The position numbers and the translations under genes are program-made. A model generated the notes under the pieces. The model saw only the letters and a list, made by a program, of their open reading frames with translations. It made no database searches and was not told the DNA's origin. A stretch of 28,749 nucleotides of DNA from a bacterium (GTDB taxonomy: Bacteria; JAMCPX01), in the NCBI GenBank assembly GCA_021787665.1, contig JAJYLN010000026.1:1-28749 (forward strand). Reading direction: 5' to 3'. Shown here in pieces: positions 1-2,364 of this stretch; within the stretch, counting starts at the first letter, position 1, and every line of letters starts with the position of its first letter.

Positions 1-93
1 CAGCGAAGAGCCTACGGACTAAAAGATCCTGAATACTTCCAGCTAAAAGTCCTGACTTGTATGCTGCCACCTCTCGACTACAAAAAAACCTGA
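1..93 (+). CDS. ISL3-family transposase, C-terminal fragment (runs off left edge)
   Basis: An open frame enters from the left edge and stops at TGA 91-93, giving the last 30 residues of a protein. The stretch RRAYGLKDPEYFQLKVL matches the conserved C-terminal style of ISL3 (IS204/IS1001/IS1096/IS1165) DDE transposases, which commonly end in an R-x-A/G-Y-G-(F/L)-(R/K)-(D/N) block followed by (F/Y)-F-x-L-K. The catalytic DDE residues lie outside the window. The frame ends 29 bp before the proposed IS tip at 122, as expected for the 3' end of a compact IS. Whether the full transposase is intact cannot be judged. Confidence 0.65.
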   Translation, partial: QRRAYGLKDPEYFQLKVLTCMLPPLDYKKT

Positions 94-122
94 AATTCAC
101 CCACTCGGTAAGGAGAAGAACC
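1..122 (+). mobile_element. Right end of an ISL3-like insertion sequence (partial)
   Basis: This is the terminal part of an insertion sequence whose body lies left of the window. It holds the last codons of a transposase (1-93) and then about 29 bp of non-coding end sequence. Read inward from position 122 on the minus strand, the end is GGTTCTTCTCCTTACCGAG. This resembles the GGCTCTTC-type inverted-repeat tips known for ISL3-family elements. The helicase gene on the other strand loses its family-like sequence exactly at 122/123, which fixes the boundary. ISL3 elements usually make 8-bp target duplications, so AGAATTTG at 123-130 is the predicted copy; its partner would be off the window. The family assignment is from memory of the IR and protein style, not from a search. 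Confidence 0.7.
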
Positions 123-2170
123 AGAATTTGTTTGTATAATTGAATGTCCTGTTCAATGTGCTTCTGCAATCGTTCTTTATCGAAGTCGGCAATTTGGTAC
201 GTTTTAGAAACTTCTGCCAAAGCGTCGATTAAATCCATCTCTTCTTCTGCATTCGGATCATAAAGAATTTGTTGTGCATCTTCACCTGCTGGAACAATTC
301 CTTTGGATAATGCAGTCAAAAACCTCTCATGGATAGCAAGTAAATTTTTGACTGTTTCCCGAAATGCAAAAACGCTCGATTCAAAGCGTTTAAACAATAG
401 GATCCTGATCAGGCCGTGAAGATTAGCTCCTGCCCGATGCAGTTTTGCGTATGGCTCCTGCCTTTGTTTTTCTTTATTTACATAATGCCATAAGCCATAA
501 CGTGCATAGGTAAGCTCGTCTTTGGGTGGCGTATCTGTTTGTTGTTTCCGTGCCTTGCCAAGATACCTGCGTAATTCTTTGTAAAGACCCTGGTATGTAT
601 CTTCAATGCTATATTCAATTGTCTCGAGCTCCCGCTTTGGAAAGAATTGGTGTTTTCCTGCCACAAGTACATATGCTTTTTTAACTCCGTCCAAATATTC
701 TTTAAAACATGATGGATCGATTTGTTGATGTGTCTGAGCATCAAAACCATACCAGCGTAGAATATGATTCCTGGTTCTACGGATCAAAAGGTTTGATAAG
801 AGGTCTTGTAATCTTTTCTCGCCCTTTTCGATAAGCCGGAAGTATTGTTTTAAATCAGGCGGATCTATTGGCAGAGTAGTCTTATCATCTTGATGGAAAA
901 GTTTAATCTGATTGTATACATCCCATGCACTTTTATTACGCGGCGTTGCAGTAAGAAAACAGCATCGCTTGTCTTTCGATAAAAATGATTGCAATATCTT
1001 ATATCTCTGTGTTTCAGGATACCTAAAGTTATGACTTTCATCGATGAGTACAAAATCGCGATCTCTATATTTAACATCTTCCAGTAAAAAGTTGCGTGTT
1101 TCATCCTCACTTTCTTTTAAATAGCCGGAAGAAAGAACACGGGCATTGAGCTGGTATACTTCATTGTAACTTTCCCACATGTCAACCAAGGGAGCGGGAC
1201 AAATAATCAGCGGTCTTGCATGTTCTGTTCTCTCAAAGTGTTTTATAATAGCTGTACCGATATAGGATTTTCCCAGCCCGACGACGTCGGAAACAAATGC
1301 ACCATGGTTGTCCTTGATGATTTGTATAGCCTGTTTCACCGCAGTCTTCTGGAAATCAGCAAGCTGCTTAATTATCTCATCGTCCCAAAGGGTTTCTTTT
1401 TCTTCTTCACCTTCAATGCGGTCACTGACCAGGGAATAAAGGGCTTTCATATAAATATCGTATGGTCTGGCAGGCGCAATTGCCCACGACTGTTTCATTT
1501 CATGCATCAAGGATTCATCAAAATCCTGCGACTCATCCCATAAGGTATCAAACCATTTAACAAGCTCCGTATGGTTGTCATTGCCTTGCACAACCACATT
1601 CAATTCGGTGTTGTGTGTCACGCCGGACAGGGTAAGATTTGAAGAACCTACTATCGCTATGCCCTTTTCATGCCTGTCGACCTTTTTGCCGGAATGGTCG
1701 TAAACATTTCCATAATCAAAGATATAAGCTTTTGCGTGGAAATGCCCATTGGTATAGATTCTTACTTTAAGCCGTTTTTCTTCGATCATCTGCACAAGAG
1801 TTTTGACGAGTAACTCGCTTTCATCAGTCTGATCCATAAGCTCTACCGAACCCCTGATGTTTTCTGCAACTTTGTCACTCATTGGCTTCATCTCTATCCG
1901 CTTGGGATGGGCTTGCCTATCAACCGTATCAGCTACCATTTCAAGTCTGCGGTAACCCTCTGCAAGTTGCTCAAGAGTTTGACTGTTGGTTGTATTGCCA
2001 ATCAGAAGACGCAGCTCCTTAACCCCTGCAAGCTTGGCAGAAATACTCGTCAGTCCGGACAAAAAGAAATACCCCACGGCAAACCGTGCTGACGCGGTCG
2101 AGCCGAGAATCCGATTGATATGATCAACCAGCTTTTCTTCTCGATTATCTATTATATCGTGTGTAGGCAT
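123..2170 (-). pseudogene. PLD-nuclease/SNF2-type helicase fusion, truncated by an IS
   Basis: The gene starts at ATG 2170 and stays open to the IS junction (682 codons). Residues 1-200 form a phospholipase D-like domain with HAKAY (145-149) and GSSNL (175-179), half of an HKD nuclease site. Residues about 270-480 form the first RecA lobe of a superfamily 2 helicase, with Walker A VVGLGKS (about 296-302), DESH (377-380) and TATP (407-410). The helical region that usually precedes the second lobe follows. At 122/123 the sequence switches into an ISL3-like element, so the second helicase lobe with motifs IV-VI is missing. The frame continues open for about 40 IS-encoded residues to the window edge, so a fused, truncated protein is possible. 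The gene lies downstream of an adenine methyltransferase on the same strand, so it is probably the restriction/translocation partner. It is AT-rich compared with the chromosome. Loss of function is inferred. Confidence 0.8.
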
Positions 2171-2174
2171 TCTT

Positions 2175-2183
2175 ATTATTTTT
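2175..2183. repeat. Left 9-bp target-site duplication of the MITE-like element
   Basis: ATTATTTTT directly flanks the left terminal inverted repeat and is repeated exactly at 2356-2364 beside the right one. A perfect 9-bp direct repeat immediately outside matching inverted repeats is the footprint of transposition. Confidence 0.8.
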
Positions 2184-2355
2184 CACTACTGTCCCAATGT
2201 TATATTATCAAAGCACCCTACGCTATTAAAAACAATAGATTAGAGAGCCAAAATATTTTTTTTAAGTTCAAATCGATAAATACTTTTTTGCCTGATTTAT
2301 CTATTGACTTCTAATAGGTTACTATACTTTTAGTAATAACAGTTGGACAGTAGTG
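2184..2355. mobile_element. 172-bp MITE-like element with terminal inverted repeats
   Basis: The ends 2184-2203 and 2336-2355 are inverted repeats that match at 18 of 20 positions, starting CACTACTGTCC on both inward reads. They are flanked by identical 9-bp copies of ATTATTTTT. The interior is about 130 bp, very AT-rich, and has no plausible coding frame, so this is a non-autonomous miniature element. It lies between the methyltransferase stop and the helicase start. Removing the element and one copy of the duplication leaves only 11 nt between the two genes. The parent IS family is not identified: the 9-bp duplication would suit several families, including IS4-type elements. It may alter expression of the downstream helicase gene by separating it from its upstream partner. 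Confidence 0.82.
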
Positions 2356-2364
2356 ATTATTTTT
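2356..2364. repeat. Right 9-bp target-site duplication of the MITE-like element
   Basis: ATTATTTTT is identical to 2175-2183. It overlaps the methyltransferase stop codon (TAA at 2365-2363 on the minus strand). The element therefore landed right at the gene end without changing the protein. Confidence 0.8.

Follow-up and report, generated by a model that had tools for sequence, protein, structure and literature searches.

What is the short noncoding sequence that separates an adenine methyltransferase gene from a helicase gene at this locus, from what does it derive, and how could it have come to lie there? The first-pass annotation of the window (the whole 28,749-nt stretch of DNA analyzed here) called it a 172-bp MITE with inverted ends matching at 18/20 positions and a perfect 9-bp target duplication, held that it splits a restriction-modification operon, and left its parent transposon unnamed. 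Direct reading of the sequence (element at 2184-2355, ATTATTTTT on each side) reproduces the element, its ends, and its duplication; the other claims are taken up below.

Boundaries and Genomic Setting of the Insertion

The locus comprises the following features, given in window coordinates:

1-122, minus strand: end of a second IS, C-terminus of an ISL3-type transposase, which cuts the helicase gene
123-2170, minus strand: PLD (HKD) + SNF2 helicase, the downstream gene, truncated, with ∼683 homologous codons (ortholog, 1118 aa)
2175-2183: target duplication (9 bp, ATTATTTTT), left-hand copy, read from the sequence
2184-2355: non-autonomous IS4-family (IS4Sa-type) miniature element, 172 nt
2184-2194, plus strand: terminal inverted repeat (TIR) CACTACTGTCC, outer 11 nt perfect, 18/20 when extended
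2345-2355, minus strand: TIR CACTACTGTCC
2356-2364: target duplication (ATTATTTTT), right-hand copy, overlapping the methyltransferase stop codon
2363-5644, minus strand: Eco57I/type IIG-like adenine methyltransferase, the upstream gene, 1093 aa, with a TaqI_C specificity domain

The inverted ends (CACTACTGTCCCAATGTTAT and CACTACTGTCCAACTGTTAT) match at 18 of 20 positions and are identical over the outermost 11; the probability of an 11-bp TIR arising by chance is ∼3e-7 given the local composition, and that of an identical 9-bp duplication (target site duplication, TSD) is ∼3e-5 given the composition of the flanks. The element aligns over its full length with its own reverse complement (68%) and, as the first-pass annotation had stated, is without coding capacity, no open reading frame of at least 80 aa being found within its 172 nt. 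The insertion at positions 2184 through 2355 is real and consists of a miniature element derived from IS4Sa. It has the TIRs, the TSD, the short noncoding sequence, and the ends in common with autonomous ISs (in the related genomes G001, G005, and G008) that are expected of a MITE; the multiple genomic copies are lacking, as it is single-copy in the window's genome, which is 92.7% complete. The search of 2184-2355 against the rest of that genome, which had been proposed as a check, returned no second copy. The term MITE therefore holds for structure and not for copy number, and "miniature element" is a safer label than a MITE family of that genome. The element is unmatched in a plasmid collection searched by DNA, and viral contigs contain no 157- to 187-nt element with both TIRs perfect.

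The same genome gave no match to the transposase of the parent IS (described below), and it retains one IS left-end remnant (C29:36444) in which nt 16 through 135 are kept and the TIR is lost. Based on this remnant and the absence of a detectable transposase, the element now appears stranded; with neither an intact transposase nor a second copy there, we infer its mobility within that genome. The remnant (L003; C29 36444-36494 and surroundings) is degenerate and adjoins a CRISPR-repeat-like sequence, GTCGCGCCCCATGCGGGCGCGTGGATTGAAAC.

The methyltransferase stop codon (TAA, 2363-2365) overlaps the right repeat (2356-2364), as noted in the first-pass annotation, and the helicase ATG (2168-2170) lies 4 nt past the left one. 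The insertion breaks neither reading frame: the stop codon regains two of its bases from the right repeat. Collapsing the element and one repeat places the methyltransferase TAA 11 nt from the helicase ATG, exactly as had been reconstructed. The helicase open reading frame is nevertheless not intact, since window positions 1 through 122 are the end of the second IS. This ISL3-type IS is multi-copy, with contigs C2, C20, and C21 terminating in the same end, and its end at 1-122 is probably the cause of the contig break.

The 11-nt junction and the shared strand speak for an operon. The comparison with relatives does not: the orthologous helicase follows an AAA gene with a 34-nt spacer in G001 and likewise follows another gene in G003 (spacer short by inspection), the orthologous methyltransferase has a convergent neighbor downstream, and the two genes lie ∼8 kb apart within the same island in G001. 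An uninterrupted methyltransferase-helicase pair, against which the locus was to be compared, was not found in G001 or G003, whose orthologs (G001:C53, G003:C35, and G003:C55) have other neighbors. The same 190-bp spacer, which would have spoken against a mobile element, occurs in no relative. The claim of a split operon hence stands as regards the junction and is weakened by the neighbors of the orthologs, the lack of an intact pair, and the breakage of the helicase gene by another IS. Functional consequences for the defense genes would probably be minor, given that the helicase is already broken. Extra 5′ helicase-gene fragments lie beside unrelated genes at L114 (G001:C53, 7675-7796 and 9910-9937), a hint of repeated shuffling in the defense island.

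Parent Insertion Sequence and Two-Left-End Architecture

A DNA search of 145 genomes for relatives of the element gave matches in four (G001, G004, G005, and G008), all from the same bacterial family; these matches span about half of the element and fall at IS left ends. The copy in G004 is broken; the others are as follows:

G005:C328:11436-12760: IS copy, 1325 bp, CACTACTGTCCCAACGT-type ends, 9-bp duplication ATCATAGAT
G001:C48:10632-11956: IS copy, 1325 bp, CACTACTGTCCCAACGT-type ends
G008:C45:650-1974: IS copy, 1325 bp, CACTACTGTCCCAACGT-type ends

These 1325-bp ISs end in CACTACTGTCCCAACGTT, the same as the window element. Their transposase contains DUF4372 and DDE_Tnp_1 domains, scores 278 bits against the NCBIfam IS4 profile (NF033592; cutoff, 115), and carries a complete YREK signature (Y290, R293, E297, and K304 invariant); the nearest named element is ISPosp4, at 60% amino acid identity. 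The IS4Sa subgroup is defined by ends CA------T, repeats of 8 through 10 bp, and a size of 1150 through 1750 bp (PMC2266710, Table 1), with which the ends (CACTACTGT), the 9-bp repeats (at the G005 copy and in four of five plasmid relatives), and the 1325-bp size of the parent ISs agree. Judged by ends, repeats, size, YREK signature, and family profile, the parent's DUF4372 + DDE transposase is consistent with subgroup IS4Sa within the IS4 family. The parent that the first-pass annotation could not name is hence traced to an IS4Sa-type element whose nearest name is ISPosp4; ISs with CACTACTGTCC ends do occur in the same bacterial family, contrary to the possibility that matching ends would be found nowhere, and they support the original reading of a non-autonomous element with a 9-bp target duplication.

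Two features of the transposases and their genes were also observed. A stable hairpin lies over or beside the transposase ribosome-binding site in unrelated members (L010, L074, L193, and L194), as expected for translational shielding, and is absent from the miniature element. Six transposases (L010, L069, L074, L080, L193, and L194) terminate at or close to QLxLF, a sequence described in other IS transposases as the consensus for binding the β sliding clamp (PMC4549789).

Aligned with the ISs, the element divides into two halves:

2184-2258, plus strand: half A, ∼75 nt of IS left end, without the box described below; closest score to G001; 66 to 75% identity to the family ISs (interior)
2258-2355, minus strand: half B, ∼98 nt of IS left end, with the box; 79 to 88% identity to the family ISs (interior)

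By BLAST, half A matches the left end at G001:C48 (E = 4.3e-12), and half B matches G004 (E = 1e-14) and G008 (E = 4.6e-14). Local alignment to left ends gives z of 4.4 through 14.6, with best values per half of 14.6 and 14.3. With the TIR excluded, z against IS left ends is 4.2 through 7.8 for half A and 7.9 through 9.8 for half B, and the TIR-excluded interior of half A reaches 14.3 against the G001 left end; neither half matches the right ends (z at most 1.5, TIR excluded). On these alignments, the parent IS contributed its left end to both halves of the element. The element is therefore not the left half plus right half of one IS, as half A is left-like and not right-like, and the same-end origin of its halves differs from a simple internal deletion. 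Such a deletion is seen in a 367-bp element of G144, an ordinary left + right derivative unlike the window element; among the other miniature elements, whose parents are too distant for a clear assignment, L024 and L016 lean toward left + right. Halves A and B resemble each other at only 69%, which is comparable to the divergence among IS left ends themselves and would weaken an origin by one clean duplication; the inverted joining of two diverged IS copies is as plausible as one old inverted duplication.

A Conserved Box at a Fixed Distance from the Left Terminus

Half B contains one further feature:

2267-2275, minus strand: box CGATTTGAA, nt 81 through 89 from the right-hand terminus

Short elements with the same perfect ends were collected with a search pattern limited to 157 through 187 nt, giving 17 other elements on 16 stretches, from MAGs of Alpha-, Gamma-, and Deltaproteobacteria, Rhodanobacteraceae, Smithellaceae, Bacteroidetes, Planctomycetota, and Omnitrophota. 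One internal motif, CGAYTTSAA, recurs among them, lying 79 through 83 nt from exactly one end in 9/17, and it lies at 81 in the window element. The TSD is perfect in eight of the nine box-bearing elements, with one mismatch (by inspection) in the ninth, L030. The box is absent from seven of the remaining eight and masked by Ns in one, and seven of these eight have no perfect TSD. Five elements of 164 through 183 nt from UBA6149 and Robiginitomaculum MAGs (L015, L025, L028, L026, and L027) have the same TIRs, no box, and mostly no TSD, possibly reflecting a different mobilizer. An apparent length cluster near 171 through 174 nt is not claimed, as the search pattern was itself confined to 157 through 187 nt.

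Full-length ISs carry the box as well. Among non-redundant IS left ends selected by transposase alone, it lies at 79 through 82 nt in 17/21, against 0.07 expected; the four left ends that lack it include some belonging to other subgroups. Plasmid ISs fetched after the motif had been defined (Polaromonas ISPosp4, Magnetococcus, Thiodictyon, Rhodoferax, and Arenibacter) each carry the box, perfect and at exactly 81 (5/5), and four have a 9-bp TSD. Because the column profile included left ends picked by the box itself, these two sets, 17/21 and 5/5, provide the unbiased figures. The combined pattern was present on seven viral contigs (none with the box reversed) and at 31 sites in 386 genomes (14 for the reversed-box control); in the 17 of these 31 that have a perfect TIR, the box is always at 81 or 82. 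Literature searches on DUF4372, ISPosp4, and the box sequence returned nothing relevant and no description of the box, and the table of the IS4 classification (PMC2266710) gives no internal site alongside ends and repeats.

The box lies where a transposase promoter could sit. We tentatively propose, at somewhat less than even confidence, that the IS4Sa-type left end is asymmetric, with CGAYTTSAA as a mandatory accessory site 81 nt inside the terminus, to which the transposase or some host factor would have to bind; across several phyla, miniature derivatives would then be constrained to keep it, and one box with two TIRs would suffice for mobility of a two-left-end element. That the box is instead the −35 region of the transposase promoter, with no role in transposition and retained in miniature elements by descent only, is unlikely but by no means negligible. 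The sequence TTGAA is similar to a −35 hexamer, and hexamers of the −10 type are mildly enriched 16 through 18 nt downstream (mean match of 3.16/6 versus 2.64 in shuffles, a weak enrichment). However, the position of the box is tied to the TIR (offset SD, 0.69 nt) and not to the gene (SD of the distance to the transposase domain, 8.7 nt), its conserved CGA falls outside the hexamer, it is retained by miniature elements, which need no promoter, and the window element has no good −10 at the proper spacing.

Whatever its role, the box at its constant distance from the terminus provides a simple signature, at the sequence level, for a large and widespread IS4 group in which the literature searched describes no internal site. 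It yields a testable prediction on left-end function in IS4Sa-type transposons, and TIR + ∼70 nt + CGAYTTSAA offers a search handle for ISs and hidden MITEs.

Proposed Mechanism and Comparison with Known Systems

The explanation as a whole, which we consider very probable, is that an IS4Sa-type, transposase-less miniature element with two left ends, and with the left-end box as a candidate cis site, was mobilized in trans into the methyltransferase-helicase gap and created the 9-bp duplication. The element would have formed when two left ends of ISs, perhaps those of diverged copies, became joined in inverted orientation. The DUF4372/DDE transposase of an intact IS, now lost or unassembled in the window's genome, would have paired both TIRs in trans, and the paired element would have been excised, moved by DDE cut-and-paste, and inserted with a 9-bp stagger. 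Insertion with a 9-bp stagger is usual for IS4-family elements and is established for IS10 and IS50. The box would mark the left end as a candidate cis-acting accessory site for a host factor or the transposase; such a role would explain its fixed spacing and its occurrence once per element. At the locus, both reading frames are kept, but the helicase would no longer be translationally coupled, and the transcript would gain a strong hairpin.

This hairpin invites other readings of the element. In the operon direction, its RNA is predicted to form a single long hairpin (−50.9 kcal/mol, z of −6.6, 0/200 shuffles), as would be expected of an intergenic attenuator or a conserved, structured RNA; yet Rfam has no match to the element, its boundaries are those of a transposon with a TSD, its ends match ISs, and only short spacers lie upstream of orthologous helicases. 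Homology to the ISs refutes the structured RNA, to which we attach almost no credence. It is also very unlikely that the insertion was selected as a regulator of the helicase, whether promoter or insulator: promoter-like hexamers do point outward at both element ends, but at shuffle level (3 found, 2.4 expected), and the helicase itself is cut short by a different IS. Scans of the element for promoters and terminators stayed at chance level, and the sole terminator-like site of the scan is inside the helicase gene. As to origin, internal deletion is the usual route to a MITE, and the same transposon group provides an example in the 367-bp element of G144, with left and right ends and a 9-bp TSD. 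An ordinary internal-deletion MITE whose second half is left-like merely through AT-richness is nonetheless very improbable here, in view of the z of 14.3 and E of 4.3e-12 that link half A to the G001 left end, compared with no right end above a z of 1.5.

The preferred reading, a mobilized two-left-end element, can be set against several known systems. ISPosp4 and other DUF4372 IS4-like ISs (IS4Sa-type; ∼1325 through 1332 bp, whose left end carries the box CGAYTTGAA at nt 81) share the terminal sequence type and 9-bp TSD of the window element's group; the element differs from them in that it lacks a transposase and has a left end on either side. Bacterial MITEs such as Chunjie, QMITE2, and MITEAba12 (reviewed in PMC10969869) are likewise <200 bp, AT-rich, noncoding, bounded by TIRs and a TSD, and mobilized in trans by ISs, whereas the window element is single-copy, has an IS4Sa-type parent, and has two halves that go back to one and the same IS end. 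MITEs frequently have no known parent; for this element, the parent group is identified. Also derived from a DUF4372 IS, the 367-bp element of G144 has a 9-bp TSD and retains the left end through and past the box, but arose as an ordinary left + right internal deletion; its copies, L178 and L186, represent a second miniature family that keeps the box. The Correia/NEMIS elements of Neisseria (∼105 through 155 bp) contain an internal IHF site proposed to aid transposition (PMC2229807); like the window element, they are short with an internal site (protein-binding in Correia), although their TIRs are unrelated and the IHF site is not the CGAYTTSAA box. As an IS4Sa-derived miniature element, the insertion is of a known kind, and its two-left-end build and left-end box set it apart as a variant.
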